From NCBI GenBank assembly GCA_013180625.2, contig SNVD02000426.1, forward strand, positions 839,001-903,000: DNA of 64,000 nucleotides. Direction: 5' to 3'. The notes beneath the pieces were generated by a model. That model was not told where the DNA came from and searched no databases. It saw only the letters and a list, made by a program, of their open reading frames with translations. The translations under genes were made by a program, and so were the position numbers. Source of the stretch: Boswellia sacra (lineage: Eukaryota; Streptophyta; Magnoliopsida; Sapindales; Burseraceae). Numbering within the stretch: the stretch's first letter is position 1; each line of letters starts with the position of its first letter. Positions 4,402-40,775 of this stretch are shown piece by piece.

Positions 4402-4760
4402 CACTACAAGAGAAAAGAAATTTTACGACGGACCAAAACCGTGATAAAAAGTCATTTACCGCGGGCTTACTACGGTTTTGGCCCGTCGTAGTAAATGACG
4501 ACGTAAAAAGTCATACGACTTTTTACCGTGGTTTTGGCCTGCCGTAAAATGTCTCATACTGTAGTTAAAGAGCCCGCCGTAAATAACCGTTGTCTAGTTT
4601 GACAACATTATTTTTTCTTTTACCGCGGGCTCCAAAACCGCCGTAAATAGTTATTTCTCCTTTTACCGCGGGCTGCTAAACCGTCGTAAATAGTTCATGT
4701 GGTGTGGTGTGATGTGGTGTGGTGTTATTTACCACGGTTTTAAGAACCGCCGTAAAAAGA
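4402..4760. repeat. CACTA 1 left subterminal repeat array
   Basis: Repeated motifs alternate in orientation, for example TTTACCGCGGGCT, CCGCCGTAAA and TACGGTTTTGG. They can pair into hairpins and match the arrays at 34590-34940 and 40630-40770 of CACTA element 2. In the family such arrays bind the element's own protein. Confidence 0.7.
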
Positions 4761-5243
4761 CAGCCCTCTTTTACAAATATGGGGCACAATTTTTGTATTC
4801 AATTTTTCTGTCTGTACACATTTCTAATTCCAGGAATCCAATTTTGTATCTAACTTTTTTGGTCTGTACATATTAACTTGGGAAGAAGAAGCTAAATGTC
4901 TAACATGGAACATGACATTAAATTAACAATTCATAAATTATACAAAAGTTTTAATGCATAAGAGTCTAAAAATTCATAAGTAATTAACAAGAAAACCTGC
5001 ACAAATAATTAACAAGAAACAATAGCTTTAGCCTGTACACTCTATTTAAACTAGATGTACAATAAGAAACTTGATCCTACAACAAAGGAAAGAAAACCAA
5101 AATAAACTAACAAAGAAAGATTACAAACATAAGCAGCAAGAAGAGCTCAGCCGGATTGCTGAAACTAACATTAATATGCATCAACAATATGGATTCATAT
5201 AAATTTATGTATATATTTATGTACTAGCTAGCTATTGTTTCTA

Positions 5244-5395
5244 ATCTGTAATACCTAATAACATTAATATCCTTAGATGGAAGTTCATCAACGAGAAATC
5301 CTCCTCAATTTTCATGGTAGCCCTAACTTCCAGATATTGTCCAACTACCAATTGCAAATCATTTGCTTCAACTTCCTGTGAGTCAAAGTTTGGTA
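5244..5395 (-). pseudogene. NRPE1: NRPE1 exon fragment, 3' part, cut by copia
   Basis: Read on the minus strand this continues, across the copia insertion, the NRPE1-like frame that starts at 12953. It includes the segments SQEVEANDLQ and VVGQYLEVRAT, which fit the N-terminal part of the Pol V largest subunit following the SSRSG segment. After about 5330 the sequence no longer resembles the family and no good donor site is visible, so the capture or a deletion probably ended there. Bases 5391-5395 are the copia target duplication. Identification is by motif memory only; NRPD1 is less likely because the whole fragment set fits NRPE1 better. Confidence 0.65.
5391..5395. repeat. Copia target-site duplication, left copy
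   Basis: TGGTA directly precedes the 5' LTR and is repeated exactly at 12852-12856 after the 3' LTR. Confidence 0.9.
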
Positions 5396-5639
5396 TGTTA
5401 GCCCTAAGGCTACATGATAATTTTGATGATAACAATACACATTGATTAATTGAGATTTACTAACATGTTTATTTATGTGCAAGAGTAAGATCATTGAAAT
5501 AATTTTAAAATCAAGAAGAGGCTTATTAAAATGAAGTGTTGAAGCTAAGGAGAAGACTACATGTTAAAGGCACCAAAGTTTAAGAACAAGGATTGACTCA
5601 AGGAATGTGACACATGAGCAATGTTCAATCAATTGGTCA

Positions 5640-6330
5640 TATATATCTCTACAAATATCCAAATGATGTGATTCTTGAGCCTTTTGGAAAGCTTACTCAA
5701 TTTATAACATTTCATATGTTTTAATGAAATTCAAATTTCAAGTGCAAGGTTGTCCAAATCATCATGCAAGTTGAAAGACAAATGGAAGCAGCTGACATGA
5801 GCACCGAATACTCCTTTGGACATATCTTGAGCTAGAAAAATCAAAATGACTTGATTCTTGCGGCATTGGAAAGATGACTTAATGAGGAACATTTCATATG
5901 TTTTGAAAAAATTCAAATTTCAAACAGAAGGCCGACATAATTGACATGCAATTCGGTGGACTGACACAGAGAAGAAAAATCAACTCACATGAGCACCGAA
6001 TAGTGTTTTGGCCATATCTTAAGATAGAGATATCCAAATTCTTTGAATCTTAATGTTTTGGAAAGCTTATTCAAATATGAAGATCTTTTATGTTTTGAAG
6101 AAATTCAAATTTCAAACGGAAGGCTGACAGAATTATCATTCAAGTCGGTGGACTGACACATGGAGGAAAAATCAAGTCACATGAGCACCGAATGGTGTTT
6201 TAACCATATCTTGAGCTACCGATATCCAAATGACTTGATTCTTGATGCGTTGGAAAGCTTATTCAAATGTGCAGATCTTTTATGTTTTGAAGATTTTCAA
6301 ATTTCAAACGGAACATTGATAAAAATGGCA
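5640..6330 (+). repeat. 192-bp tandem repeats inside the copia 5' LTR
   Basis: The marker ACATGAGCACCGAAT starts at 5795, 5987 and 6179, giving a period of exactly 192 bases. A further diverged unit lies upstream. Each unit holds a CAAATTTCAAAC block and a TTGGAAAGCTTATTC-type block. The same array is present in the 3' LTR (about 11330-12010). The array gives an apparent reading frame of 117 codons that is not a gene. Confidence 0.88.
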
Positions 6331-6407
6331 GACAAGATTACGATTTTTATGGTGGGCAGAAAATTTGGAGATGGTGTCTTCACTTGTTTAAGTTCATCTC
6401 ATTTGCC

Positions 6408-6416
6408 TATAAAAGG
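6408..6416 (+). promoter_or_regulatory. TATA box of the copia 5' LTR
   Basis: TATAAAAGG lies between the two repeat arrays and is kept in the 3' LTR at 12094-12102. In copia LTRs this marks the U3/R junction, with transcription starting about 30 bases downstream. Confidence 0.7.
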
Positions 6417-6636
6417 AGCCCTTCTCCCATGCATTCAGCAAGACAACAAGAGAGCAAGAGAAGTATTCTATCAAGCAAAAAACAAGAGAAATATCAAGTC
6501 TAGAGAGCTTTAATATTCTTTATCTACTCTTTGAAGAGAGTTGTACTTTTGTTGTAAAAATTACTTTGTTCTTGTATTGTGGTGAGAGTGAGATCTTCTT
6601 GTAAAGGATAAAAGTTATCCTTGAGAGAACTCTTTC

Positions 6637-6850
6637 CTTGGTGAGTTTGTTCATCAAGAAGAACTCTTGGTGTGGTGTTATCAAGAGTTGAAGGAAGTTG
6701 CCTTGGTGAGGTTGTTCATCAAGAAGAACTCTTGGTGTGGTGTTATCAAGAGTTGAAGAAGTTGCCTTGGTGAGGTTGTTCATCAAGAAGAACTCTTGGT
6801 GTGGTGTTATCAAGGGTTGAAGAAAAAGTCTTGGTGAGGTTGTTCATCAA
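6637..6850 (+). repeat. About 63-bp tandem repeats in the copia 5' LTR
   Basis: Units of the form CTTGGTGAGGTTGTTCATC, then AAGAAGAACTCTTGG, then TGTGGTGTTATCAAG recur three to four times. The same array lies in the 3' LTR at about 12320-12530. Confidence 0.85.
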
Positions 6851-7171
6851 GCAAGTTGTAAAGATTTCTACAACTTAGTGGAAAACTTAGCTCGTGGAGC
6901 TAGGAGCCCGTGGACGTAGGCAAGGTTTGCCGAACCACGTAAATTGAGTTTGCACTCTCTCTATCCCTATCTCTTTATATTTACTTGCACTTGTGATTGT
7001 TCTTTATTGTATTCTCTTGATTGCATTCTATTTTCATTTCATCTTCATCCTTTATTCTCAAAGAAAGAGTGAACTAATTTTGATCTTTCAAGAAAAGTTT
7101 TCTAAATCCATTTTGATAAATAAAAACCCAATTCACCCCCCCTCTTGGGTTGCCATACCTGGGTCAACAAG

Positions 7172-7183
7172 TGGTATCAGAGC
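7172..7183 (+). promoter_or_regulatory. Primer-binding site, initiator Met tRNA type
   Basis: TGGTATCAGAGC is complementary to the 3' end of plant initiator methionine tRNA and lies two bases after the 5' LTR. It primes minus-strand DNA synthesis in the retroelement life cycle. Confidence 0.92.
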
Positions 7184-7223
7184 AAGGTTGCTCATTTTTT
7201 TAAATCTTAAACGATTTTGAGCT

Positions 7224-8534
7224 ATGGCAACTTTTAATTCAACTTCATATGTTGAGGGACTTTCTATCTCTAGACCTCCATTTTTTAATGGAAGTGATTA
7301 CTCTTATTGGAAAACTAGAATGAGTATTTTCTTGAAATCTTTTGATTATGATTTGTGGTCTATTGTTTTGGAAGGACCTTTTGTTCCTACCAAAATTGAA
7401 AATGGGGAATGCATGCTTAAAGAACCTAAGAGTTTAGTGAAGATGATAAAAAGAAATTGAGTTTGAATGCTAAAGCTATGAATGTGTTATATTGTGCTCT
7501 AGATAGAAATGAGTTTAATAGAATATCTACTTGTTCTACGGCACAAGAAATATGGCACACACTTGAAGTAACTCATGAAGGAACTAGTCAAGTTAAAGAA
7601 TCTAAAATTAGTATGCTAGTTCATAGTTATGAGCTTTTTAAGATGAAATCGAATGAATCAATTTCTGAAATGTTTACTAGATTTACGGATATTATTAATA
7701 GTTTGAAATCTCTTGGTAAATCTTATTTTAATGTTGAAATGGTGAGAAAGATTCTTAGGTGTCTACCAAAATCTTGGGAGCCAAAGGTGACGGCAATTCA
7801 AGAAGCAAAGGACCTCACCAAACTACCATTAGAAGAACTTATGAGTTCTCTCATGACTCATGAAATCACCTTGAAGGAGAGTGAAGAAGAAGATTGCAAA
7901 GTGGCAAACATGTGCTTCATGGCTTTAAGAGAAAATGAGATAAGTATTCTAAACCATGATCCTAAACTTTCATATGATGAATTACTGGAAGCATTCCAAA
8001 ATTTACATGTGCAAGTTGATAAACAAAATTCAAAAATCAATGCTTTCAAAAAGAAGTCAAAAATCATGTTATCTCAATTAGAAGAGTTGGTGGAAATAAA
8101 TGAGCTTTAGAAAATGAAAATGAAATTTTAAAGCAAAAAGATTTTGAAAGTTTGGAAAATCAAATACATTTATTAAAAACTGAAAATGAGATTTTAAAAC
8201 AAAAGGATTTTGATAAATTAGAGAAAAAAAAATGGTATTTTGAAAAAGGAAAATAATAACTTAAGAAATATTGTTGATAGTTTTACAAAAAGCACAAAAA
8301 ATTTGAATTCTATGTTACAAAACCAAAGGTGTGTTTTTGATAAAAGGGGTTAGAGATAAAGTCATAAAAATCAAAAGTATTTTAAAAACTATTTTGTTCA
8401 TGCATCTTCTAGGAATAATCCTAATCATTCAGGAATATATTGTGGAGAAAAGGACACAAAATGCATTCTTGTTTACAATTAAGAGAAATCCTAATTTGAA
8501 AACAAATATGGGTTCCAAAAAGTACCATAACTAA
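7224..8534 (+). pseudogene. Copia gag (capsid) region, frameshifted
   Basis: The frame opens at the ATG at 7224. FFNGSDYSYWKTRM followed by LSLNAKAMNVLYCAL and CLPKSWEPKVTAI is the usual copia gag (UBN2-type) signature. A frameshift near 7440 joins the first 78 codons to the next frame at 7457. A coiled-coil-like stretch of repeated EILKQKDF segments follows (8100-8290). A degenerate zinc knuckle YCGEKGHKMHSC near 8440 lacks its first cysteine. The protein would form the particle that encloses the RNA; this copy cannot encode it intact. Confidence 0.85.
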
Positions 8535-8609
8535 ACCCCAAAGACCCAAGAACTTTTGGGTACCAAAAAGTTACTCCTTGAATGTTGATTGTAGAGACAA
8601 AGTGGCAAA

Positions 8610-9860
8610 CACAAGTGTTACTTAGATAGTGGATGCTCAAGGCATATGACCGAAGATGCCTCCAAATTTTCAAGATTAATGATGAAGAAAAGGAGGATAT
8701 GTGACCTTCGGTGATAATGCCAAAAGAAGGGTAATCGGACATAGTGATATTGGTAACCCTTCTTTACCTATTATTAAAGATATTTTGCTTGTTCATGGTT
8801 TGAAACATGATTTGATTAGCATTAGTCAATTATGTGATAAGGGATATTTTGTTGCTTTTGAGCCTAATAGATGTGTGATTAAGGATGTTAGTAACAATAA
8901 GACATTATTTGTTGGTACTAGATGTGGTAATATTTATACAATTGATATTGATGTTAATGATCATGTAGAAAATTGTTTCATTGTTAATCATGATGCTTGG
9001 TTATGGCATAGAAGGGTAGGTCATGCTAGCATGGACACAATTTCAAAAATTTCTAAAAATGATTTAGTTGATGGTCTTCCAAAAATAAATTTGAAAATGA
9101 TAAGATTTATGATGCTTGTCAATTTGGGAAACAAGTGAGAACTTCTTTTAAACAAAAGAAATTTATTTCAACAAATAAACCTCTACAATTACTTCATTTG
9201 GATTTATTTGGACCATCAAGAAATCAAAGTCTTGGTGGAAAGTATTATGTTTTTGTTATTGTGGATGATTATTCAAGATTCACTTGGGTGTTATTCTTGA
9301 AAACTAAAAATGAGACTACACAAGCTTTTTCAAAATTGCAAAAAGAGTCCAAAATCAAAGACGGTTTTCTATTATGTCCATTAGGAGTGATCATGGTGGT
9401 GAAGTAGACAATGTTGCATTTGAAAATCTTTGTGATGAAAATGGTTTTGAACATAATTTTTCTGTACCTAGAACTTCACAACAAAATCGTGTTATTGAGA
9501 GAAAAAAAATAGGACTATCCAAGAAATGGCTAGGACCATGTTACTTGAAAATTATTTGCCAAAATATTTTTGGGCCGAAGCCGTTAATACCGCATGCTTT
9601 ATAATCAATAGAGTCCATGTTAGAGCTTTAATAAAGAAAAATCCTTATGAACTTTGGAAAGGAAGAAAACCCAACATTGGATTTTTAAAGTTTTTGGATG
9701 TAAATGTTTTATTTTAAATACCAAGGATAACCTTGAAAAATTTGATGCAAAAGCCGATGTTGGAATTTTTGTTGGCTACTCCAACCATAGTAAAGCATAT
9801 AGAGTTTTAATAAAAAGACTCTTGCTATTGAAGATTCTATGCATGTTGAATTTGATGAAA
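8610..9860 (+). pseudogene. Copia protease and integrase, broken frames
   Basis: YLDSGCSRHMTED near 8620 is the aspartic protease active site. The GAG-pre-integrase region has WLWHRRVGHASMDT near 9000, a zinc-binding type segment. The integrase core shows LHLDLFGPS and VDDYSRFTW (first Asp, about 9200-9290), IRSDHGGE (second Asp, about 9380) and an IERK segment (Glu, about 9495). Frameshifts occur near 9120, 9375, 9530 and 9720, and stop codons near 8690. The parts would cut the polyprotein and insert the DNA copy. Confidence 0.85.
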
Positions 9861-10039
9861 CTAATGTGATTTCTTCAAAGAATTTAGATGATGATATTGT
9901 TGAAGTAGAAAGGCAAATCAAGGAATCAAGGCTTGATGAAAAGAGTCAAGATGATTTACAACTTCAACAAGAAAAGCTTGAGAAAGTAAATGATTCTTCC
10001 CAAGAATTACCAAAGGAATTGAGATCAAGCAATCAATAG

Positions 10040-10847
10040 ATGGGATCTTCATTAATCAAGCTAATTACACAAGAGATCTTCTCAAGAAGTTTGGCATGGA
10101 TAATTCAAGGACATATAACACACCTATGGGTACATTAACCAAGCTTGACAAAGATAAGAAAGGAAAAGATTTTGAGGTAACAAAATATCGAGGTATGATT
10201 GGCTCTCTTTTGTATTTAACTGCTAGTAGACCTGATATTATGTTTAGTGTGTATATGTGTGCTAGATTTCAGTCTTGTCCAAAGGAATCTCACCTTAAGG
10301 CTGTCAAAAGGATATTTAGATATCTTCTTGGAACCATAAATCTAGGTCTTTGGTATCCTAAGTGTGATAATTTTGATCTAATTAGTTATTCCGATGCGGA
10401 CTTTGCTGGAAGTCTTCTTGATAGAAAGAGCACTAGTGGCTCTTGCCATTTTCTAGGACATGCATTAGTATCATGGTTTAGTAGAAAACAAAAATCTGTT
10501 GCATTATCAACCGCGGAAGCGAAGTATATTGCAGTAGGAAGTTGTTGTGCACAACTCTCTTTGGATGAAACAAATTTTAAAAGATTATGGTGTGGTATTT
10601 GATCAAATTCCCATCAAATGTGACAATACAAGTGCCATTAACATTTCAAAAAAATCCAATACAACACTCCAGGACTAAGCATATAGAGATTAGACATCAT
10701 TTTATTAGAGATCATGTGCAAAAAGGTAATATTTCTTTAGAATTTGTTCCCACCGAAAAACAATTAGCCGATATATTCACTAAACCCCTTAGTCAAGATA
10801 GATTTTGCATAATTAGAAGAGAATTAGGCATATTAGATATGTCTTAA
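10040..10847 (+). pseudogene. Copia RNase H and residual RT end; RT core deleted
   Basis: After the spacer near 10010-10040 the sequence goes straight to the connection region (LLKKFGMDNSR, RPDIMFSVYMCARFQ) and RNase H (SYSDADFAGSLLDRKSTSG, ALSTAEAKYIAVGS, KQLADIFTKPLSQDRF). The catalytic reverse-transcriptase block, normally about 1 kb, is absent, so there is no YVDD motif. A frameshift near 10590 splits RNase H. The element depends on others for reverse transcription. Confidence 0.85.
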
Positions 10848-11073
10848 TTTGCTTTAATATGATAATCTTTGAATGGTAGCATATGTTAAGGGGGAGAATA
10901 TATTTAGGGGGAGTAGTTAATTTGATTACATTTTTTTGATGATAACAAAAGGGGGTGAAATAGTTGGATTGATTATATTCATAACAAGTGCCATTCTTTT
11001 TGCTTATTGTTGATTTTATTTTCATTCTTGATTTTAGATTATATTTTAAAGCAATCAATGGTTTGTCATCATC

Positions 11074-11085
11074 AAAAGGGGGAGA
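11074..11085 (+). promoter_or_regulatory. Copia polypurine tract
   Basis: AAAAGGGGGAGA lies directly before the 3' LTR and would prime plus-strand synthesis. Two further GGGGGAG-type runs occur upstream (about 10890-10915). Confidence 0.8.
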
Positions 11086-11086
11086 T

Positions 11087-12851
11087 TGTTAGCCCTAAGG
11101 CTACATGATAATTTTGATGATAACAATACACATTGATTAATTGAGATTTACTAACATGTTTATTTATGTGCAAGAGTAAGATCATTGAAATAATTTTAAA
11201 ATCAAGAAGAGGCTTATTAAAATGAAGTGTTGAAGCTAAGGAGAAGACTACATGTTAAAGGCACCAAAGTTTAAGAACAAGGATTGACTCAAGGAATGTG
11301 ACACATGAGCAATGTTCAATCAATTGGTCATATATATCTCTACAAATATCCAAATGACGTGATTCTTGAGCCTTTGGAAAGCTTACTCAATTTATAACAT
11401 TTCATATGTTTTAATGAAATTCAAATTTCAAGTGCAAGGTTGTCCAAATCATCATGCAAGTTGAAAGACAAATGGAAGCAGCTGACATGAGCACCAAATA
11501 CTCCTTTTGGACATATCTTGAGCTAGAAAAATCAAAATGACTTGATTCTTGTGGCATTAGAAAGATGACTTAATGAGGAACATTTCATATGTTTTAAAAA
11601 AATTCAAATTTCAAACAGAAGGCGACATAATTGACATGCAATTCGGTGGACTGACACAGAGAAGAAAAATCAACTCACATGAGCACCGAATGGGTTTTGG
11701 CCATATCTTAAGATAGAGATATCCAAATTCTTTGAATCTTAATGTTTTGGAAAGCTTATTCAAATATAAAGATCTTTTATGTTTTGAAGAAATTCAAATT
11801 TCAAACGGAAGGCTGACAGAATTATCATTCAAGTCGGTGGACTGACACATGGAGGAAAAATCAAGTCACATGAGCACCGAATGGTGTTTTGGCCATATCT
11901 TGAGCTACCGATATCCAAATGACTTGATTCTTGATGCGTTGGAAAGCTTATTCAAATGTTCAGATCTTTATGTTTTGAAATTTTCAAATTTCAAACGAAC
12001 ATTGACAAAAATGGCAGACAAGATTACGGTTTTTATGGTGGACAGAAAATTTGAGATGGTGTCTTCACTTGATTAAGTTCATCCTCATTTGCCTATAAAA
12101 GGAGCCCTTCTCCCATGCATTCAGCAGAAAACAAGAGAGCAAGAGAAGTATTTATCAAGCAAAAAAACAAGAGAAAATATCAAGTCTAGAGAGCTTTAAT
12201 ATTCTTTATCTACTCTTTGAAGAGAGTTGTACTTTTGTTGTAAAAATTACTTTGTTCTTGTATTGTGGTGAGAGTGAGATCTTCTTGTAAAGGATAAAAG
12301 TATCCTTGAGAGAACTCTTTCCTTGGTGAGTTGTTCATCAAGAAGAACTCTTGGTGTGGTGTTAGCAAGGGTTGAAGGAAGTTGCCTTGGTGAGGTTGTT
12401 TATCAAGAAGAACTCTTGGTGTGGTGTTATAAGAGTTGAAGGAAGTTGCCTTGGTGAGGTTGTTCATCAAGAAGAACTCTTGGTGTGGTGTTATCAAGAG
12501 TTGAAGAAAAAGTCTTGGTGAGGTTGTTCATCAAGCAAGTTGTAAAGATTTTACAACTTAGTGGAAAGCTTAGCTCGTGGAGCTAGGAGCCCGTGGACGT
12601 AGGCAAGGTTTGCCGAACCACGTAAATCGAGTTTGCACTCTCTCTATCCCTATCTCTTTATATTTACTTGCACTTGTGATTGTTCTTTATTTCTATTCTC
12701 CTGATTGCATTCTATTTTCATCTTCTTCACCTTTATTCTCAAAAGAAAGAGTAAACTAATTTTGATCTTTCAAGAAAAGTTTTACAAATCCGTTTTGATA
12801 AATAAAAACCCAATTCACCCCCCCTCTTGGGTTGCCATACCTGGGTCAACA
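11087..12851 (+). repeat. Copia 3' LTR (1765 bp)
   Basis: Same ends and internal arrays as the 5' LTR. Most differences I see between the copies are one-base indels, many in runs of one base (for example CTTTTGGAAAG against CTTTGGAAAG), and most of them shorten this copy. Its promoter points rightward into the captured exons of CACTA element 1. Confidence 0.93.
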
Positions 12852-12856
12852 TGGTA

Positions 12857-12953
12857 TACCCGATCTTGAACTTTTAATAATCTCAACTTGCTTCAGAACT
12901 TTCTTTACCATAGATAGAGAAAGATTTTGAAATCCAAGATGGCAATAAGTTAG
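12857..12953 (-). pseudogene. NRPE1: NRPE1 exon fragment, 5' part, cut by copia
   Basis: Minus-strand translation from a plausible acceptor (CACTAG) at 12954 gives LSLSMVKKVLKQVEIIKSSR and then meets the copia target site. The frame resumes at 5395. The pattern VKKVL..VE.IKSSRSG.PNF followed by EVEANDLQ is what I know of NRPE1, the largest subunit of plant RNA polymerase V. Pol V makes scaffold transcripts for RNA-directed DNA methylation in the nucleus. This is only a fragment and has lost all catalytic parts. Confidence 0.65.
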
Positions 12954-13053
12954 CTAGTGAGTTTAACAAAAAAATCACCTAAGCAGAGACACAAGAAACC
13001 TGATTTGCTCATAATTTGCTTACCGAAGACATGACGCTAACACCATCTCTTAC

Positions 13054-13225
13054 CTTCCTCATCATGAGTATCCTCCAGCATCTCTTCATGGCCTTGATGA
13101 TTATTTTCTTTTGCACCATCTTCCCCAGATTGCTTCTCGAGATTTTCTCCTATCCAACGAGATGCGACAAGGTGACCCAACTCTTCCCTTGACAACTCCT
13201 CGGTAGTTCCAGATGCATCACTCTC
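13054..13225 (-). pseudogene. Glucosidase II beta subunit exon fragment (SREELG segment)
   Basis: Exon flanked by CAG acceptor and GTAAGA donor. It reads ESDASGTTEELSREELG, then HLVASRWIGENLEKQSG and further acidic residues. The ELSREELG.LVASRW.GE block is a hallmark of the plant glucosidase II beta subunit (PRKCSH-like, called PSL4 in Arabidopsis), an ER protein that holds the catalytic alpha subunit which trims glucose from N-glycans. The frame of this exon is open. It is one of four consecutive fragments of that gene in CACTA element 1. Confidence 0.8.
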
Positions 13226-14176
13226 CTGCAGATATTATAAGAAGTGCTAGCACTTGAGCCGACCAGAAATTTCAAAGTTTTGCTAAAATTTTAGGCTTTC
13301 CATAAGTTACAATTCTAAAAACTCAGGAACTCCTAAAATGTTCCAAATTCTGAAATACATCTCTTAGCAGACACCAATATTACAAGCAATAAGAAATGAA
13401 CAAATCCAATATATCAAATTCACTTCTTAAAAGTAATAACAAGTCTCCAATATATGTGTCAAAACAAAATGAATAAACTCTTTGCTTGGCCAATATTCCA
13501 CCTCTCTTAGAAAAAAAATAACAAGATACCTTTGAAAGCATTGATTTTGTCAAACTATTACACATTCACAGATATTTCATTAAGTGATAAAACACCATAT
13601 CTTTGATTACATGAGAGCACCATAAAGTTACTCTTTTTCTATTCCTTGTATTCCTCACTTCTTTTGTGTATTTCAGAGTTTATAAAAGAAAAACAATTTG
13701 AAGTCAAACAACTTCTGCAGTATACTCTTTCGTACCAAACACCTATAAATTTCAATTATTGCAAAAAAGATTAGAAAAGCATCAACTTACTAGAGCATTA
13801 AAATGTTGAGAATATTTTAAGTCCTGAATAAAGAGGAAAACAAATGGTTTAGTTTCTATTTGGAAAATATTCACATTATGAATATAGGTTGCTACATGAC
13901 TAATCATAGCTAACTGATTCGTTTTCTTAGCTCATTATTGAATATTCAACATAATACGGATGAAAGCTACAAGTATATACCAATCTCATCATACAACTTA
14001 CCTATGGTTTTATCCCCAACAAAAATTTTGGGTGTAACAGATAAATGTTGACTGTTTTCTAGAACCAACATAACACTATCATGAGCCAAAATTTGTGAAT
14101 GTAATTTAAATTTTAAAGGAGGGTCATCTCCCTCCCACCGTTAACTAAAAGCTTTAATAAATATTAGAAAAATTAC

Positions 14177-14296
14177 CACTTTCTTCACTTCATCCAGAGA
14201 CAACTCACTTCCAGCATCATGAGCAGTTTCAGTTACAACTGCAGAACTGTCCTTGGTTTTTGGTGAGACGGTTTCCTCCATTTTTTCAGTTTCATG
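14177..14296 (-). pseudogene. Glucosidase II beta exon fragment (acidic linker)
   Basis: Exon between a TATAG acceptor and a GTAATT donor. It encodes HETEKMEETVSPKTKDSS and ELSLDEVKKV. This acidic, low-complexity linker fits the position between the coiled coil and the SREELG block in glucosidase II beta. On its own it would not be identifiable; its order between better-recognised exons supports the call. Confidence 0.55.
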
Positions 14297-14402
14297 CTAT
14301 ATTGAGAAAGAGAACATTTAATGATCTTATATTTTCACTACAAATAACAAAACTTGGGCTGAACCATATATGTGAAAGAATATACAAGTGTTCTCCATTT
14401 AC

Positions 14403-14501
14403 CTGCTCTCCTGCACTCACTAGTGTTTCCACGGTTTTGGAGGCACCATCTTCTTCATCTTTAGCTACTTGATCATCATCGGCATAGCTTTTTGCCATGT
14501 C
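14403..14501 (-). pseudogene. Glucosidase II beta exon fragment (acidic linker)
   Basis: Exon between an AATAG acceptor and a GTAAAT donor. It encodes DMAKSYADDDQVAKDEEDG and SKTVETLVSAGEQ. It is a low-complexity acidic linker placed in order between the coiled-coil exon and the next linker exon, so it most likely belongs to the same captured gene. Confidence 0.5.
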
Positions 14502-15642
14502 CTATTAGAGAGCAGGGCATGTGAGAATTTAAAGAAAGAAATTTTTGCAAGGTAGGGTGAAAGTGACCAATAAATTAGATTAATCATAAAATAAACATCC
14601 ACATATGAGCTTCCCTGCAGACATACGACCATACTGAGCTTCCTTGTATACACATGACTGTAACTGTAACTGTAAATGTACAAGAAACAACACATATTTG
14701 TGGCAAGTGCAACACTAAAGCAAAAATATGAAATTTTATTGCTGGTTGTTGAAGGAAGAAGAATCAGCACCAATGTGAGATGTGCAGAAGTGCAAATGAA
14801 ACATAGTTAATCAAAGGGGATAAGTGCATGATATATCTGAGAAGTACACCTTATAATGAGTTTCAATATACATGCAGCATGTAACTTTGCGAAAAGCTCT
14901 ACACCAGATAAGTTTGCATCAAATTAGACAAAATTTAATAAACCAAGTTCTCAACAGATCTATTAATTTCGATTAAGAACAATTTTACTATGCTTTTGCC
15001 AACTAAAACTGGCTTCAACAGAGGATAATTAGTTTATATATACATGCAATACTACATCATAAACTAAAGACTGTATCCATTGCAGTACACCAAGAGAGTA
15101 AAGTGGTACAGAACAATAGGAAAGATACAGAATTCTGGATAGGAACGCTTCAATACATTTCTCAGAGGGTACAAGATTAGAGCAATTTCAAGAGTGCTGC
15201 TCTCTCCCTAACCAACTTCTCTCTAGATCACTCTGTCCCACCCTTCTCTCACTCTTCTCTTTTAATTCCACTTTGCCTAAAAGCCAAATAACTAACTAAC
15301 TAATTCCTTTTAACAAACATTGCCACCTGGCATTTAATCTTTTCCCACTGCTTAAATCCTACCATGACTTGAGGTAATCCTATAAGAGCCTGATCCCACA
15401 TTCTTTTAGCCATCCTAGTACAGATCAACTCAACTGGAGGCCTATCATAAATAAATTACGTTTCATCCATCATTAGGTATATCAATTGATAAGTTATAAT
15501 TATGCTGATAAGTTATAATTATGCTAGTGTGTTGATAAGATATTTTAAAGGTTTACAAATAAATTAAAGAGAGACAAAATTACATGTGCTAGAAACATAT
15601 TTAGAGATTCATTTAGGCATCAGAACTAAGGAGCAGTCTAAC

Positions 15643-15875
15643 CTGATCCTTTGATGAATGCTCCGAAACACCAACTTCATCATCATGCGTAGTATCCTTG
15701 GGCTACTCTTCACTGCAAGCATTCTCCAGGACTTCATTATTTTCATGCTTAGCTTCATTCAAATATTCACTTTTCTCTCTCTGAGCTTTTTCCTCAGCTT
15801 CTTTCTTTTCCTTCTCTTCCTTTTCTTTTTAAATATGCTCTTTCTCCTCAACTTTTTCTATTTGTTCTTTACGCT
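15643..15875 (-). pseudogene. Glucosidase II beta coiled-coil exon with stops
   Basis: After a TGTAG acceptor the exon reads RKEQIEKVEEKEHI, a TAA stop, then KEKEEKEKKEAEEKAQREK, and further on a TAG before PKDTTHDDEVG. The KERKEQIEK.EEKE..QKEKEEKE pattern is the charged coiled coil of plant glucosidase II beta; the TAA replaces a Gln-like position. The donor is GTTAGA. The stops show the fragment no longer encodes protein. Confidence 0.72.
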
Positions 15876-16187
15876 CTACATGGGAGTAGAAGCAGAACAG
15901 TTAAAATATGGTGAACTTTAGGCTATGAATGAGAAAAGCTAATTGATTACTTTAAAAATCGTGATAACCAAAACCATCAAGCAGATTAAAGTACTCAAAC
16001 AAATACACGTGCACACATATATGTATGTATGTATACCATAATGCAAACAAAATAGTGAACCAAGGAATAAAAGTTCAACTAATTTAAGAATTATGAGAGA
16101 AAATATAAACCACAAAACAATCCAGCATCATAATCAATCAAAATAGCAAAGATCAAATAAAGAACATGAGAGCAAGAAATGTCAAAC

Positions 16188-16361
16188 CTCAAAAGGAAGT
16201 AGAGATCGAGTTAAGTTGTCACCATAGCGAAAACCATATCTTTCTAAGAAATTCCAGAAGCCATGGGTTAATCTAAACTTTGATTTTGATGGAAGTTTCA
16301 ATTGCAAGAAAGAAACACCATCTGTTGTTTTAACTACTACAATTGAAACTAGCGAAGCTTC
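16188..16361 (-). pseudogene. NRPE1: NRPE1 exon fragment (LKLPS...FWNFLERYGFRYG)
   Basis: Clean exon with a CTGCAG acceptor and a GTTTGA donor. It encodes EASLVSIVVVKTTDGVSF, LQLKLPSKSKF and HGFWNFLERYGFRYGDN, then LTRSLLPFEV. This block follows the zinc-binding N-terminus in NRPE1 (the DGASYLELKLPS..GFWNFLERYG pattern). The reading frame is open over the full exon. It is part of a collinear minus-strand series from 17255 to 16188. Confidence 0.8.
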
Positions 16362-16692
16362 CTGCAGGGGAAAGAGGATAACTAAATAAACCATGTAATT
16401 GAAAATACAAAGAAATACTATGATACTTTCTGTCAAATTTAAATCCTATACCATTTTCAGTTCAGTTTTCAGATTGAACCTGAAAACTAAACAAATTCCT
16501 CAATCGAAAAACCAAACCAAACCAGACTAAATTGTTTAGTCTAGTTTGGTCCAGTCAGGTCAACTTTTCTTTTGCCCAGCCATTCCTCTACTCTTTGATT
16601 AATTGTTCAAATAGCTCATCGCAAATTTATCTATTTATTTAGAAAACAATCCGCAAATAGACTAACAAACAAAAAGTCGAAAACATTCATAC

Positions 16693-16740
16693 CCTACAAC
16701 ATGGAGATAACAATCTTTGGGCATTGTCCTTAATCTGAAA
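16693..16740 (-). pseudogene. NRPE1: NRPE1 short exon fragment (RLLSPCC)
   Basis: A 48-bp exon with a TTTCAG acceptor and a GTATGA donor encodes FQIKDNAQRLLSPCCR. It matches in place the segment with a conserved Cys pair (RLL..CC) between the HFGYIELP exon and the LKLPS exon of NRPE1. The short length and in-phase junctions with both neighbours support a real captured exon. Confidence 0.7.
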
Positions 16741-16878
16741 CTGAAAGGTATAGAAAGCATTAATGTCAGGCATATGAAACTGAAGCATCCAGTAGTATGT
16801 TAACCCAGAACTGTAGTGATTTACAAAATAAACAACAAATAGAAACTCTGAGAGTCATCTTAACAGAGACAGTTATAC

Positions 16879-16994
16879 CTTGTTGGTCTTCAATTTTAAG
16901 CATTTCAAGCACAATAAGCTCAACATTCGCTTCAATTTACTGATATGACTAGGATGATATATCGGTATTGGTAGTTCAATATATCCAAAATGAC
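16879..16994 (-). pseudogene. NRPE1: NRPE1 exon fragment (HFGYIELPIPIYHP)
   Basis: Exon with a CTAAG-like TTTTAG acceptor and a GTATAA donor. It encodes GHFGYIELPIPIYHPSH then ISKLKRMLSLLCLKCLKLK. GHFGYIEL followed by YHP.H and LLCLKC are the zinc-clamp signatures of multisubunit RNA polymerase largest subunits; the exact form fits Pol V (NRPE1) better than Pol II or Pol IV (NRPD1). The frame is open. Confidence 0.85.
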
Positions 16995-17116
16995 CTAAAA
17001 CAAAGGAAAAAGATGTGCAAAGCTTCAAAAGGTAACTTTTAAAACTATGTATAATGATGCAAATTTTTGCATCATTTTTATAGCAAAAAAGATTTCAAAG
17101 ATAATCACTTACACAC

Positions 17117-17255
17117 CTTCATATTTACCAACTTCAGAAGTAGAAGCACCACAAGATTCACATTTACCAAATTCAAGTGGTAAGCCAGGGAAGGAATTTG
17201 CTAGCTGACTCGCATGACTGATTGGACAACCACTCAAAATGTCATAACTAGCTAG
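17117..17255 (-). pseudogene. NRPE1: NRPE1 N-terminal exon fragment (GLPLEFGKCESCG)
   Basis: Encodes SHASQLANSFPGLPLEFG then KCESCGASTSEVGKYEG, and its donor GTGTGT joins in phase to the GHFGYIEL exon. The GLPLEFGKCESCG segment with two cysteines is the start of the zinc-binding clamp of NRPE1. The next expected ligand, normally C in a CEGH motif, is Y here (KYEGH), so a metal ligand is lost. The upstream edge of the fragment is not defined. Confidence 0.8.
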
Positions 17256-17454
17256 TAAATGTCTCAAGCCTCAAGCAGTTACATTACACGATTTCTTAAA
17301 TTTCAAGACATGAAAATGTCAGGGAGTCCCACCTTCACGACAGGAGAAAGAAGGTCCGACGGACTGCTGCTGTTAGCCTGGTACGAGTCCAAGACGAGAC
17401 TGAGTATCCGTCGCAGCTTTGCCTTCAACAGAAAGGTTAGCCGCCGTAACTCGC

Positions 17455-17700
17455 AGCTCTGATTCGACTTCGAGAGACAGAGAGGCGTGAGAGCGATGAC
17501 TATCGAGAGACAAGCTTAGATTCGGTTTCGATTAGATGCTGCCGCCACAGAGAGACATGACTATCGAGACAGAGGTGAAGGTGAGGACGTGAGATGAGAT
17601 AGAGCTGCGTCATCGCAGCTCGCAGATCTGATTCGACTTCAAAAGACAGAAGCTTCGATTCGGTTAGATGCTGCCGCCGCAGAGAGAGAGGTGAAGGAGA
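17455..17700 (-). repeat. Internal tandem duplication near the CACTA 1 right end
   Basis: Two copies of a roughly 150-170 base unit (about 17455-17560 and 17605-17695) share CGCAG, CTGATTCGACTTC and TTAGATGCTGCCGCC. This lies between the right subterminal array and the first NRPE1 exon, where a promoter or 5' untranslated region for the minus-strand cargo transcript would be expected. Confidence 0.6.
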
Positions 17701-17919
17701 GGACTAAGGAGGACGTTAGGTGAGTTAGGCAGAACCAAAAAGGGATTAGGTTAGGGATTTGGAGTTTCAATTTTAGGGCTTTTTTTAGGATTCCATTCCA
17801 CAATTCAACGAATGAAATAAGGGAGGGAAATAGGGAGGGCAAGAAATTAGGGATTTAGATTGGGTGAGAGAGAGAGAGAGAGGGGGAAAAATTATATTGA
17901 ATGAATTTACTACGTATAT

Positions 17920-18031
17920 ATATAGTCTTTCAACTACGCTCGTTGTAGTCCGCCATAAAATTTGATTTTTTACTGCATTTCTTACAATCCGTGGTAAATT
18001 GTTACAGTAAATAGTCCTTTTTCTAGTAGTG
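17920..18031. repeat. CACTA 1 right subterminal region and terminus
   Basis: GTCCGCCATAAAATTTGA, TTTTTACTGCATTTCTTAC and the terminus CTAGTAGTG match the right end of CACTA element 2 (40660-40775: GCTCGCCACAAAATTTGA, TTTTTACCGCATTTTTGAA, CTATAGTAGTG). Confidence 0.8.
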
Positions 18032-25013: not shown

Positions 25014-25057
<44 letters not shown>

Positions 25058-25077
25058 TTTTCTTTTGAAACTCCACA
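23373..25077 (-). repeat. Chromovirus 3' LTR (left copy, 1705 bp)
   Basis: Contains ten or so 67-bp repeats (23818-24465), a TCGACAC-rich block (24570-24690), a 39-base inverted copy of part of the 67-bp repeat (24709-24746), a CT-rich segment and a long AT run (25018-25054). It lacks about 440 bases present in the right LTR at 31292-31728. Confidence 0.9.
23818..24465. repeat. 67-bp hairpin-forming tandem array in the left LTR
   Basis: The marker TTCCCCTTGGAT begins at 23821, 23888, 23955, 24022 and 24089, a period of 67 bases, followed by units of 66-67. Each unit holds CCTTGGATCCGT, ATACAAA, then ACGGCCCATCCAAGG; the arms CCTTGGAT and ATCCAAGG plus CCGT and ACGG can fold into a stem of about 12 pairs. 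The array is mirrored in the right LTR. Confidence 0.92.
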
Positions 25078-25802: not shown

Positions 25803-25829
25803 AAATGGTAGATGATCCTCCCAATTACC

Positions 25830-29917: not shown

Positions 29918-29920
29918 CTC

Positions 29921-34328: not shown

Positions 34329-34599
34329 AATCTTTTGGACAAATGTTCAGGATCCTCTATTGTTTCTTCTCAACCACTAGTGATGCTTGCTTACGTGGTA
34401 GGCCCATTTTATCTACTCCTTTTCATCTTGTATTTTGACTTTTCATGATCAAAATGTGAAAATGACTTGTGTGGTTAATTAAATAATAAATTATTATGTT
34501 GTTAGAGCTATCAATGCTTTGTTAATGTTTATCTACTTTCTAGGAGAGATCAAATTAATTCATGTAGCATGATATCACTACAAGAAAATAGGCCTTTTA

Positions 34600-34940
34600 C
34601 GGCGGGCTGAAATCGCGGTAAAAAGCCTTCTACGGCGGGTATACGACGATTTAAGTCTGTCATATAAAATAGCACTGTAAAAACTCATTTTACTTTTTAC
34701 CGCGGTTTAGGCCAGCTGTAAAAGTCATTTTACCGCGGGCGCTCGGCCCGCCGTAAAAACTTGTGGTCTGGTGTATTATGCTTGGCCCACCGTAAAAATT
34801 CCACTACAGGCTACCCTACTCGCCGTAAATAATTATAAAAATCGTGGTCTGACTTTTACCGCAAGTGTGTGTCCGCCGTAAAAAGTGCTTGTTGTTGTCC
34901 CAGTTCATTAACCGCAGTCATTAGGCCCGCAGTAAAAAAA
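34600..34940. repeat. CACTA 2 left subterminal repeat array
   Basis: Alternating copies of TTTTACGGCGGG, TTTTTACCGCGG and CCGCCGTAAAAA, able to pair with each other. Same family as 4402-4760. Confidence 0.75.
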
Positions 34941-35712
34941 AGCTCAACTCCCAGAACCCTTTTTGCAATTTTTCTGAAATCCGGGCCTGTAACCATTTTT
35001 TCAATCTATTTTTTTCTAATTAATTCAAATAATTCATCATATGAAAACATGAACCAATAAAATGATATTCCAATAAAAAATAAGAGTACAACATAAGAGT
35101 ATATTATCACAAACACATAAATTAATAAGTTATACATTCACATACAACATAATAGTACCAAGTTTATTTGCAATCATATTCAAGTCGAGAAGTCTAGAAG
35201 TATAAAATATGTCTAGAAGTCTTATTCCCATTCAAGTTTTCATGCAAAAAAAACTTGCACAAATAAAATGTAATAATTAGATGTCTTACTATTACTAAGT
35301 TTATTAGAGAAGTTCAAATAAATGTTATATGCCAAAATTTATTTATTACTGAGTAATGATAAATAACTTCGCATATACCTAATTCTCCTCATTCTCCTCC
35401 TCATTTGTTGTTACGGCGTCCATATTAACGCGATTTTGGTGTGCACTTGAAGCATCCAGAACTAAAACCTAAGACATTTTAAAAAGTTTAGAAAAACTTG
35501 TAGTCCTAAATAGTTCCAAACAACACAAAATGCATCCATCTTTAGACTCTGACCAATCCTATTTAAAATAACCATCATCAAGGTACACCAGGAATATAAG
35601 CAATACAGTCCAAGAGCAGTGTAAAACTTTAAAAGTACATCTCCACCACCACCAACTAATATAATAATAATTCCAATAATCTTAAATAACTTTTAATGCT
35701 TAGATTTGGAAT

Positions 35713-35795
35713 CTTCAAGAAAGTTGAGAGGATCATAAAGCATACCAGATGCCTGATGGAGTGTATCCAATGCCAATGAGTCCCAAAGATCCTAA
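35713..35795 (-). pseudogene. Exon-like fragment, product not recognised
   Basis: The minus strand reads DLWDSLALDTLHQASG and MLYDPLNFLED with no stop. The upstream side has a possible acceptor. It could be another captured exon of CACTA element 2, but I cannot name the gene. Confidence 0.3.
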
Positions 35796-36046
35796 AATAA
35801 AATAAAATGGCAACAAGCCAGCAGATAGACTAACTTCATTATATGACCACAAAAAATAAAAAAAATATTGCAATCTTACATAATAGATATGATATTATTA
35901 ATTTTCACTTAGTGACATAACAGATGATGTTAACAAGCAACAAAGAGAAAAGAAATATAAAAATTTTGGAGTGTGCACATCATAAAAAATAAAATAAAAT
36001 AAATCCCTGAAACTGCATATTGTAACAAATAAGAAGCACTAAAATT

Positions 36047-36166
36047 TACAAATAATTCATAATCTCCTCTATGTTGCGGTAATCAGGTTTGGCCCAAAAA
36101 GATCCATAAGTTGGATAGTAAAGTGGATACGTATCCCCTGTACAGGTCAAAGGATCTGTTCCCTGT
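36047..36166 (-). pseudogene. Exon-like fragment ending in a stop, not recognised
   Basis: After a TTTGACAG acceptor the minus strand reads GTDPLTCTGDTYPLYYPTYG then SFWAKPDYRNIEEIMNYL and a TAA. It looks like a terminal exon. It lies downstream of the villin exons in the same orientation but does not look like villin. Confidence 0.35.
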
Positions 36167-36424
36167 CAAACTTTAGGCTGAAATGTCTTGTTTTATGAAT
36201 TTTAAAATTCTTCAATGTTAGTTTGAAATGTCATAGGTTCAGCCACATTATGGTATTTGGATTCAGTCTTAGTCTAACCTGTTGGAAATTAGGTTTAGCA
36301 GGGTTGGAAGTCATATATCCATTGGCATATTACTTATAAAACTTTCTTTGGAAGGTTCAGCTTTCACTATATGGGGCTCCGGGAAGCAGATGCTTACTTT
36401 GCCTCTTTTACACATCACCCCTGT

Positions 36425-36456
<32 letters not shown>

Positions 36457-36994
36457 CCCATCTCCCTCTTGATACCAGATCTCTCACTCCATGATAAATA
36501 TACCAGTGCCAGGGAAAAATTAAGAACCACACAATCATCTCCGTACACAGATTCCAAGCCAATCAAACAAAACCCAATCATAATCTACTTTAAAACATTA
36601 TAAGCCAGACAAGAACTATGACCAGATCATCATAAACAAAATTTTGAATAGAACCCAAGGACCACATGCAAGTGCTCATAGGTACATTGCATGTCAGTCA
36701 ACAGATATTAAATCTTTCCAATTTCTTCGGTGAAATTCTAAGGTCAGTAATAGGAATCCCTTCAAACAATCTATGTTAGATAGGAAAGAAAATAATAAAT
36801 AAATGTTACATTCTAGAGAATTTGGGATATGTGTTTCTCTCTCACCCTCTCTTCGAAAATATCTTTTGTTTGACTATCTTCCAGCAAAGATGTTTCACAT
36901 ATTTGCAACAGCAGGCACGTATAACCATCTTCTATGTTATGCCATAACCAAGAAGAGTAGAGAAGTATTATTGAGCATGAAATGACCCACTTAC

Positions 36995-37120
36995 TTTTGC
37001 CTTTGAGGGATCCCATGTGAAGAAGCGAGCGAAATGAGGTGGCTCATGCCCCTCTGTGACAACATATATAGGAGTCTCTAGAGATAGTCCTTCCACCAGT
37101 ATGTCTTTCTCTATAAATTT
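36995..37120 (-). pseudogene. Villin exon fragment (last gelsolin-type domain)
   Basis: Acceptor GGGCAG, donor GTAAGT. Reads KFIEKDILVEGLSLETPIY, VVTEGHEPPHF and ARFFTWDPSKAK. The LVEGLSLETPIYVVTEG.EPPFFTRFF.WD pattern is the end of the sixth gelsolin-like domain of plant villins, which bundle and sever actin filaments in the cytoplasm. The usual T of FFTRFF is A here (ARFF, preceded by H). The exon is open. Confidence 0.85.
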
Positions 37121-37638
37121 CTGCCCGTTACAAAAGTATAAGCAAAAGAAAGCATAGGCAAATGTGACATCAAATATGCACATTGATAAGCCATTCATGA
37201 ATTCTGCATCTCAAAATTGATGTTTTCAATTATGTATTGTTTCCTATATATTTGGATACAAAAGCATCATCAAACAGAGGTGTTTAGGCACAATAATAGG
37301 CCATTCATGAATTTTGCATCTCAAGATATTGGCTTTTTCAATTATGTATTAGTTCTTGTATATTTGGATACAAAAGCATCACCAAATCAATTAGCTATGA
37401 AACTATATACATCATAAATGTCTTATCAATGTCTTATAGACCTTCAAAACTTGCGGACCATATAAATCAACCAAGTACCGCAGCAAGCATACCCATGATA
37501 TAATTCCACTAAAGGGATGAGATATACATACAAACACATTGAAGCAAAGTCAAAGCTCCAATAAGCCATCAAATAAATCAATCAAAAGAATTTCACCTTG
37601 AAGATGATGAACTTAATTGAGTTGAAAGATATAATTAC

Positions 37639-37779
37639 CATGCCAATACCAAGAGCCTGTTGTTTTGATATAACATTGGAATGGCACCCAATCCAAACAT
37701 ATATTTCTTTCTGGCAATCTAGCACTACGACATCTTCAGTTGTTAAATCATCCTGTATGAAGTTGTATATCTCTTTCAT
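37639..37779 (-). pseudogene. Villin exon fragment (IYNFxQDDLTTED)
   Basis: Acceptor CAG, donor GTAATT. Reads KEIYNFIQDDLTTEDVVV, LDCQKEIYVWIGCHSN and ISKQQALGIGM. This is the sixth gelsolin-like domain of plant villin; the DDLTTEDV.VLDC..EIYVW.GC motif is close to invariant. No stop in the exon. Confidence 0.88.
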
Positions 37780-38444
37780 CTGAAAGTTTGGCCATGCTAA
37801 AGATCAGTCCACTTTATTTTTTAAACAAGGAGGCCTTCAGAATCTGGATTGCTTAGTCAAAAAAAGTTGCAAAAATTCAAGTCTAGAAACATATCATACA
37901 AGAAACTGAATGAATTGATAAACAGAGAAAAAAAAAAGTTCTAATTGAATATTTTTCTTCTTTCCTTGGATTTGATAATTAAAATAAGTAGTAAATTCAA
38001 TAGAGTGAAAGCTTATAAAGAATGTTGATGGAAACAAGTAGGCATTTCCTTAGTTTTCACTTTCATACATAACTTTAAATTCCTTGTCTATCTACCAAAA
38101 TTTTAGATCACGAGTCTGTGGTGTACTCTTCGATAGGGATGAATTGACAATTTGATTGATTATGGCCAGATTCATAAAAATATAATTTCCAAATCAATGT
38201 ATACAAAAATTGTAATAAACACTAGAGGTGAAACAACTTTCAAACTGCACATGTGTATAAAACTTGTACATGAAATGTACCTTGAGATCGCCTGAAAAAG
38301 GAGAACGATCCAAGATGCAAAATAACCATAATCTAGAATTAGACATGATTTGCAGCCACATTTATAGCTGGGATATTTTTTATCAAGGCAGAACCACATA
38401 ACCTCAGAGACAAGCAATCAAGAAGGAAAGGATGTTTTGCTTAC

Positions 38445-38592
38445 CTTCAGTAAAGGTACATGTAAACCAATGTGGGTCTTCTGTACATCCTCTTATCTTC
38501 TTTTCTCTTGGGTACTCTCCCTTTCCACCAAGTGCATTCCAGAAACTATCCGATTCACTTCCTTCCCTCACTGATATGGTTTGCCATGTTGG
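38445..38592 (-). pseudogene. Villin exon fragment (SVREGSES.FWNALGGK)
   Basis: Acceptor TTGCAG, donor GTAAGC. Reads PTWQTISVREGSESDSFW, NALGGKGEYPREKKIRG and EDPHWFTCTFTE. This links the fifth and sixth gelsolin-like domains of plant villin. Open frame. Confidence 0.87.
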
Positions 38593-39681
38593 CTGCAAAA
38601 AGCACCAAGAGACACAAATATTGATTAGCATTTTCATTTAGTCCCCTTTCGAAGTTTTAGTATGGATCCATTGATTAAGTGGTTCGATACACTGAATAAA
38701 GTTTGACTTTATTAGGATTGTACTATCATGTTCAAATTTAGAGTGTACTGTTGCATACATTAATTAATTCAACAATTCTATCAAGTAGATCAAGGTCTCG
38801 AGTAGATGATAGATTCCCAATCCAAGTGAAGATAGATGCTCCAGTTTGTAGGATATAATAATAAGATGAATTCAACGAGCTTAAAGCCTATAACATAACA
38901 TTGTTTTCAAAAGTAATCAGCTGAATACTAGAGAGTTATATGTCATCTTGGTACTGAATGAACAGGAAAAAAAAAGAAGGCATCTCCTTGGAGACAGTAA
39001 GTCATCAAGTTTTAACAAAAAAAAAATGGGATGTCCCATTCACCCAACTTTTTATAAAAGAGCACTTAGCATCACTAAGTGCTTATTACTCAACTAACTC
39101 AAAATCCTCTAAAAAAATGATGACAAGACCAATGTCAAGAGCTCATGAAACTTATACTTCAGCTATAGTACTTTATTGATCTGATTTTTTGCTCTTACGG
39201 TAGCATGGGCAACAAAATCATGTTAACAAACAAGGAAAAACGAACAGAAGCAAATCACGTTTCAATTATGCATCAGCTATACGGACCAAAAGCAGACATA
39301 GGATAAACAATTTATACGAGATTTGACATATCATAGACTCTACTGATACACTCTACATAACAATGTACAAGAAGCCAACTTAGTTTATGTTTCGGCCAAA
39401 TCCAAAGCTGATACTTTGGAAGATTTTAATCATAGGACTCAATTGTCCTGATAGCAAAACAAACTTCTCTTACCGTCCTTAGCTATTGTGAACTTTGAAA
39501 CTTTTGTCAAGACTAGCATTGGTTTGACAACAAATAAACATGAGACAACAAATTAATTAATCTCTTAATTATGCTAAAAGTGTCATAGCCCAAAAGAATG
39601 TCACAAGGCACACCACACGTGCATTGCATATGAGTGAGAGAAAGAGCTATCATTTCAGATGGTGCCCTGACTTAAACTTAC

Positions 39682-39819
39682 TAGATCCACTTGGATGGCT
39701 TGCATGCTATTTGGGCTCATGCCTTGTACTCGAAAAAGAGCTATCTGTTTTTCATTGTAGGTTTCATCTACAATACCTTGTGCTGCAATAGACTGCTTGT
39801 ACCATGTACTTAAACCTCC
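39682..39819 (-). pseudogene. Villin exon fragment (GIVDETYNE...LFRVQG)
   Basis: Acceptor TTGTAG, donor GTAAGT. Reads GGLSTWYKQSIAAQGIVDE, TYNEKQIALFRVQGMSPN and SMQAIQVDL. This is the fifth gelsolin-like domain region of plant villin. It directly follows, in the coding direction, the exon at 39960-40027, as in a genuine villin gene. Confidence 0.87.
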
Positions 39820-39959
39820 CTACAAGAAAAGGCAAAAGATTAAAGCATGAATTATGTTTCTTAGTATTTTTACTTGCAAAAAAGGAAAAAGAAAAAAAAA
39901 ATCTCATGATTGACTGAATTTTAAAAAAAAAATACAAAAACAACTTGTAGTGTACAAAC

Positions 39960-40027
39960 CTTAAAAACAATTAATGTTCGAAAGATGAAGAAAAATTGAA
40001 CTGGCTCCATATCTGAATTACTTGAGC
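39960..40027 (-). pseudogene. Villin exon fragment (EPVQFF.IF...VFKGG)
   Basis: Acceptor TTTCAG, donor GTTTGT. One frame reads SDMEPVQFFFIFRTLIVFK, matching the EP.QFF.IFQ..IV.KGG segment that precedes GGLS in villins. The exon's first codons are diverged. It is the most upstream villin piece and follows the CDC48 exon. Confidence 0.75.
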
Positions 40028-40245
40028 CTGAAATCAAAGGTACATGAGTTACATTTGTCATGCGAATTGCAGTCATTAAATTCATCCATTTGAGCAATGC
40101 AGCAAGTGCAAGTCTATAATATAAGTGCCATCATCGACTTGATTATTTTGAAGGGTCTCAATAAACTATGTAAATGATAATAACTATGACCAGATCATCA
40201 TAAACAAAATTTCGAATAGAACCCAACGAACAGAAAAAATCAAAC

Positions 40246-40368
40246 CTTTATGAGGATCATGTCACGACGGGAGAGCTGGAGCTTCTCCATGGCATCGGGA
40301 TGGAGCGAAATGATAGAGCTGTTGTCGTTTACAGCTTCATCAACAATGAGAGGATTGGAAGCCTCACA
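40246..40368 (-). pseudogene. CDC48: CDC48 first-exon fragment
   Basis: Reads [39 protein letters not shown] and IK, then a GTTTGA donor. The pattern NRL.VDEA.NDDNSVVSLHP..MEKLQLFRGDTILIK is the start of the N domain of CDC48, the AAA ATPase that unfolds ubiquitylated proteins in nucleus and cytoplasm. Here the conserved RGD turn is RRD. No start codon was found for it. It is upstream of, and on the same strand as, the villin exons, so a chimeric transcript is possible. Confidence 0.85.
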
Positions 40369-40539
40369 CTAAAATCCCTCTTAGTCCCCTTCCTGTTAAT
40401 TAAATTCTTATTTAGGTAATTCCCACGAACAAAGAAAATCTGTCTTCTCAACGATTTTCAAAGATCAATATTATAATTTGAGAAATAAAAGTAAAAAGAG
40501 AGAGGAAGCAAAGTATACGATGGGCTCTTGAGGGAATTT

Positions 40540-40775
40540 GAGAGGAATAAATTAGGGATTTGAGAGGGAAGCAAGTAGGAGAATGGCGTAAAGAGAGGAT
40601 ACCAAATATAATAATTAGATTATATAAAAGCATTTTACTGTGGGCCTCCAAAACCGCAGTAAAGTTCATACCTTTGACTGCGGGTGTGATAGCTCGCCAC
40701 AAAATTTGAATTTTTACCGCATTTTTGAATGCCCGCGGTAAATAGATGCAGTAAAAGCCTCATTCTATAGTAGTG
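40540..40775. repeat. CACTA 2 right subterminal region and terminus
   Basis: Contains AATTAGGGATTTGAGAGG, CCAAAACCGCAGTAAAG, GCTCGCCACAAAATTTGA and CCCGCGGTAAA, then the terminus CTATAGTAGTG. It is homologous to 17820-18031 of CACTA element 1. Confidence 0.82.

Follow-up and report, generated by a model that had tools for sequence, protein, structure and literature searches.

Why should a transposon carry part of the gene for NRPE1, a subunit of Pol V, the polymerase that silences transposons? The question arises in a 64,000-nucleotide stretch of Boswellia sacra DNA (contig SNVD02000426.1, positions 839,001 to 903,000; hereafter the window), in which a CACTA element, E1, encloses NRPE1 exons (Table 1). 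A preliminary description had recognised four such exons and had considered that small RNAs or a decoy clamp domain derived from them might lower NRPE1 activity. The evidence assembled here points to another answer: very probably, E1 is a non-autonomous Pack-CACTA element whose interior has been patched together from pieces of two genes, NRPE1 and glucosidase II beta, which it carries as decaying passengers.

The four exons of the first NRPE1 piece lie on the minus strand where they had originally been placed, and their in-frame splicing yields 159 codons without a stop. Each of the three internal junctions pairs a GT donor with an AG acceptor, and a codon split as G|GT gives the glycine expected in the motif EGHFGY. 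The splice sites first described are thus real at the internal junctions and absent at the 17255 edge of the first exon, which reads TTTA|CTAG and where the homology of the first ~6 residues is doubtful. The 48-base exon (16740-16693) is too short to be detected by tblastn alone. The assignment to NRPE1 is confirmed by a phmmer comparison with PDB structures, in which the spliced fragment scores best with Pol V NRPE1 (193.8 bits), against 37.4 bits for the best Pol II match and 29.6-29.7 bits for Pol IV; on these scores an origin from either of the latter polymerases is rejected. The Pfam profile RNA_pol_Rpb1_1 matches at E 3.8e-07, below its cut-off. A search of 712 candidates gave 290 proteins, of which the 120 listed form the NRPE1 comparison set; the closest of the 120 by BLAST is that of Citrus (79% identity, 163 of 207 aligned positions).

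The NRPE1 content of the window extends beyond these exons. Some 52 additional codons (Citrus residues 236-287) form a second piece, cut in two by a 7.5-kb Copia-like element with long terminal repeats (LTRs) and a target-site duplication (TSD), TGGTA, at 5391-5395 and 12852-12856. The LTRs of this insertion differ by a Kimura two-parameter (K2P) distance of 0.031, and its RVT_2 match reaches 20.0 bits, under the cut-off of 31.6. Once the flanks of the insertion are joined, no stop interrupts the NRPE1 frame between 12953 and about 5297; a Pfam scan of the second piece found nothing. Searching the window by tblastn with the 120 NRPE1-type proteins (E 1e-3) gives matches on the minus strand only, at about 17.2, 16.9, 16.3, 13.0-12.9 and 5.4 kb, and no further NRPE1 sequence. 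Coverage therefore amounts to about Citrus residues 32-183 and 236-287, and the ~50 codons in between (residues ~184-235), sought with Citrus NRPE1 and with a separate NRPE1 stretch, have no significant match in the window. No full-length coding region was found, and the search excludes a full-length host NRPE1 in the window. The earlier view of the exons as a fragment is upheld; the extent then given to it was right for the four-exon piece and too short overall.

Between the two NRPE1 pieces lie four exons of the glucosidase II beta gene, absent from the preliminary description, collinear at 15875-13055 and oriented as the NRPE1 pieces are. The cargo thus reads NRPE1, glucosidase II beta, NRPE1, with the glucosidase exons occupying the place of the absent NRPE1 codons. 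The first glucosidase exon appears to start after an AG at 15877-15876; the second has the acceptor TAG|GAC and GGTAAA downstream, and the last has GCAG upstream and GGTAAG downstream. The best match is the glucosidase 2 subunit beta of Pistacia vera (E 1.3e-33, from a query mixed with a nitrate transporter peptide). This mixed query returned 23 matches among 1202 candidates: 4 glucosidase or MRH proteins, 1 protein without a domain and 18 transporters, the last group being due to the nitrate transporter part of the query. A Pfam scan of the glucosidase peptide gave nothing above chance. Most simply, the element would already have contained an NRPE1 piece, part of which then gave way to the glucosidase piece.

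This cargo of host-gene fragments with introns is enclosed by CACTA terminal inverted repeats, CACTACAAGAGAA at 4402 (plus strand) and CACTACTAGAAAA at 18031 (minus strand). With its two mismatches to the CACTA pattern, CACTACAAGAGAA alone could be chance (8 such matches in the window against 2.51 expected). The first 148 bp of E1, however, are homologous to the left end of another CACTA element in the window, E2 (73% identity, E 3e-19). The last 81 bp are likewise 77% identical to the right end of E2 (E 1.8e-9), so that the CACTA setting already proposed holds at both ends. Aligned locally with each other, the two ends of E1 score 39, a value reached by 0 of 500 shuffles, the best of which scored 29. 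Subterminal repeats are present as well: of 23 matches to the motif in the window, 11 fall at 4422-4756 in the left end and 1 in the right end, the motif having been defined after inspection of the left end. Outside the retrotransposon, the longest stop-to-stop frame of E1 and E2 is 113 aa; by frame length E1 contains no intact transposase, although no scan with transposase profiles was made and remnants are possible. The stretch 17256-17900, which separates the right CACTA end from the first NRPE1 exon, is partly repeated and C/T-rich on the minus strand; it looks like a 5' leader.

Table 1. Coordinates of E1, its cargo, the nested insertion and E2 in the window.
Feature	Position	Strand	Basis or remark
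Non-autonomous CACTA element E1, ~6.2 kb without the Copia-like insertion	4402..18031		CACTA ends, homology to E2
Left CACTA end of E1, subterminal TTTACCGCGG / CCGCCGTAAA repeats	4402..4760	+	Motif matches
NRPE1 second piece, second part, to about Citrus residue 287	5310..5395	-	tblastn
Copia-like LTR retrotransposon in second NRPE1 piece	5396..12851	+	Flanks, LTRs
NRPE1 second piece, first part, from about Citrus residue 236	12857..12926	-	tblastn
Glucosidase II beta exon, residues 346-401	13055..13222	-	tblastn E 8e-17
Glucosidase II beta exon, residues 308-344	14177..14287	-	tblastn E 5e-10
Glucosidase II beta exon, from residue 272 of P0170	14405..14501	-	Weak alone (E 0.68), collinear
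Glucosidase II beta exon, residues 194-271 of P0170	15643..15875	-	tblastn E 3e-24; two in-frame stops
NRPE1 exon with FWNFLERYGFRYG	16188..16361	-	Splice sites, tblastn
NRPE1 short exon FQIKDNAQRLLSPCCR	16693..16740	-	Frame, splice sites, alignment
NRPE1 exon with HFGYIELPIPIYHP	16879..16994	-	90% identity over 39 aa to Citrus NRPE1 (tblastn)
NRPE1 exon with CESCG motif	17117..17255	-	True 5' edge uncertain
Right CACTA end of E1	17920..18031	-	Aligns with left end; homologous to E2 right end
Second CACTA element E2, same family as E1	34576..40775		TSD TAT/TAT; end homology

E1 and E2 lie together in a 40-kb part of the window, and the cargo of E2 is of a different kind. It includes an N-terminal CDC48 exon at 40368-40246 on the minus strand (E 4.5e-12 to plant CDC48) and, within 40025-36995 on the same strand, five segments of gelsolin/villin-type exons, whose best matches among solved structures are gelsolins, followed by villins. 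The cargo of the family is accordingly not restricted to silencing genes. There is no sign of a preference for such genes, and the choice of NRPE1 looks incidental.

Whether the captured NRPE1 could still act depends in part on its coding capacity. The fragment alters 7 of 65 near-invariant positions (those that 97% or more of the 120 listed NRPE1 proteins conserve), 4 of 48 in the first piece and 3 of 17 in the second, against highest counts of 3 and 2 in any of the listed proteins; two of the seven sites lie close to the margins of the fragment, where homology is less certain, and five remain without them. One column is occupied by Cys in all 120 listed proteins and by Tyr in the fragment, the lost residue being presumably a zinc ligand, as in Rpb1 structures. 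There is no in-frame ATG between the 17255 edge and the next upstream stop, and exon 4 meets a stop at once if left unspliced; joined to the next captured acceptor, it reads SVKNK and then stops. The loss of the Cys, the further substitutions, the missing ATG and the stop behind exon 4 all disfavour the decoy of the preliminary description, a translated clamp domain that would compete with NRPE1 in Pol V assembly, and make it extremely unlikely, even with a frame that is open over 159 codons and the second piece and with three indels that are all in frame. Some of the same observations do weigh against regarding the cargo as mere debris in a CACTA element. The frame has no stop across both pieces, and the three small indels, each of two codons, are shared by 0, 1 and 0 of the 120 proteins; the chance that all three keep the frame is ~1/27, a hint of past translation or of inheritance from the donor gene. 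An ATG could come from a spliced-on upstream exon, and the conserved columns were picked from these very 120 proteins, a choice that tilts the comparison in their favour. The triplets that flank E1, ACA and AGA, are equal at only 2 of 3 positions, short of an exact TSD. The open frame is, however, weak evidence either way, because neutral change leaves no stop with a probability of 0.22-0.39 in simulation, and it is thereby discounted as proof of selection. With two in-frame stops in the glucosidase piece as well, the captured pieces look decayed, not like a working weapon against silencing, and E1 probably encodes no working NRPE1 product.

An effect on silencing might also pass through RNA. 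Transcribed NRPE1 pieces could give rise to small interfering RNAs (siRNAs) acting in trans on host NRPE1, with less Pol V and looser silencing of E1 as the outcome; the exon and intron order kept in the pieces would suit this, and a conflict involving siRNAs is reported for maize (PMC13317346). The route appears very unlikely in view of the protein-level identity of only 79% to the closest listed NRPE1 (a comparison that did not include the host gene), of the CDC48 and villin-type exons, not silencing genes, in E2, and of the single occurrence of each NRPE1 piece by tblastn, by which no inverted second copy lies in the window. It is equally hard to credit the wider proposal that siRNAs or a truncated protein from these pieces damp host Pol V and that their carriage favours the CACTA family. 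The unequal triplets around E1, together with the Copia-like element that did insert at the locus, would be compatible with a local NRPE1 pseudogene, or a broken host NRPE1, that was invaded by transposons and is not CACTA cargo. Yet the NRPE1 sequence breaks off on either side within a pair of CACTA ends that have homologues in E2, the two pieces are separated by a foreign gene in the same orientation and tblastn finds no NRPE1 sequence in the rest of the window, which leaves a local pseudogene improbable and favours capture by a Pack-CACTA element.

Under capture, a CACTA element would have taken up exons and introns of two host genes as DNA copies, within the host lineage. The retained introns, the collinear exons and the CACTA ends are observed; the route of capture and the donor lineage we infer from them. 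In a tree of the fragment and 24 of the 120 listed proteins, the fragment falls within Sapindales (90/94) and beside Pistacia (92/78), neither fork reaching the mark for strong support. Its branch is long (0.25), as is that of Pistacia (0.23), and its identity is higher to Citrus than to Pistacia, unlike its placement in the tree. Ilex, the source of the top-scoring NRPE1 (P0050), was rejected as host lineage: the N terminus is present twice in that protein, which inflates the score. Two tandem nitrate transporter genes of the NRT2.5 type occupy 57764-63286; with Pistacia vera NRT2.5 they share 92% and 85% identity in the long exon and 88-89% in the short one. By these comparisons the host looks like a member of Sapindales close to Pistacia. 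Given these Pistacia-like genes and the placement of the fragment in Sapindales, the donor was most likely the host lineage's own NRPE1 gene. E1 would have been moved by transposase supplied elsewhere and was later struck by the Copia-like element. From the LTR difference and assumed substitution rates, this insertion is ~1.2-2.2 million years old, and since it sits inside the captured NRPE1 piece, the capture is older.

Other repeats are present in the window. A Mutator-like element with inverted arms of ~1 kb spans 45936-57114 and encodes MuDR DNA-binding, MULE transposase, SWIM and Ulp1 protease domains, like the Ulp1-bearing Mutator-like elements (MULEs). An LTR retrotransposon at 23582-31992, which we take to be gypsy-like, has an RVT_1 reverse transcriptase and LTRs that contain 67-bp tandem repeats. 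A direct repeat of 176 bp, 89% identical, occurs at 124-299 and 3216-3391, 3.1 kb apart.

Gene capture by plant CACTA elements is known, and what is unusual here is the NRPE1 cargo. Pack-CACTA elements that contain parts of several genes have been reported from Arabidopsis and maize (PMC8903248); as described there, they resemble E1 in their CACTA-type ends, in the lack of a detected intact transposase and in the fragmentation of more than one gene, whereas E1, known from one window, includes the Pol V gene NRPE1 in its cargo. Tgm-Express1 of soybean, reported as a 5.7-kb CACTA element with five gene fragments, similarly keeps fragments of several unrelated host genes as exons and introns (PMC1947982); its site is the intron of a gene, and splicing brings its fragments into transcripts, while E1 is known from its sequence. 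The VANC and KIU genes of VANDAL MULEs are a parallel in that a transposon carries sequence bearing on silencing, but they encode proteins that are reported to cause hypomethylation of related elements (PMC13317346), and E1 holds a decayed, partial exon set. According to the same 2026 review, most captured fragments are pseudogenes without function, although expression is reported for many of them; its main text does not mention NRPE1. Among the papers listed, titles and the beginnings of abstracts yielded no report of captured NRPE1 in a transposon, most subscription papers lying outside this search.

The window thus offers a legible example of how a CACTA family accumulates pieces of unrelated genes, one of its two elements carrying part of a Pol V gene. 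If a damping of Pol V were true, E1 would hold counter-silencing cargo drawn from the silencing machinery itself, and if the NRPE1 cargo affected its donor gene, the locus would provide a direct test of the conflict between transposons and the machinery that silences them.
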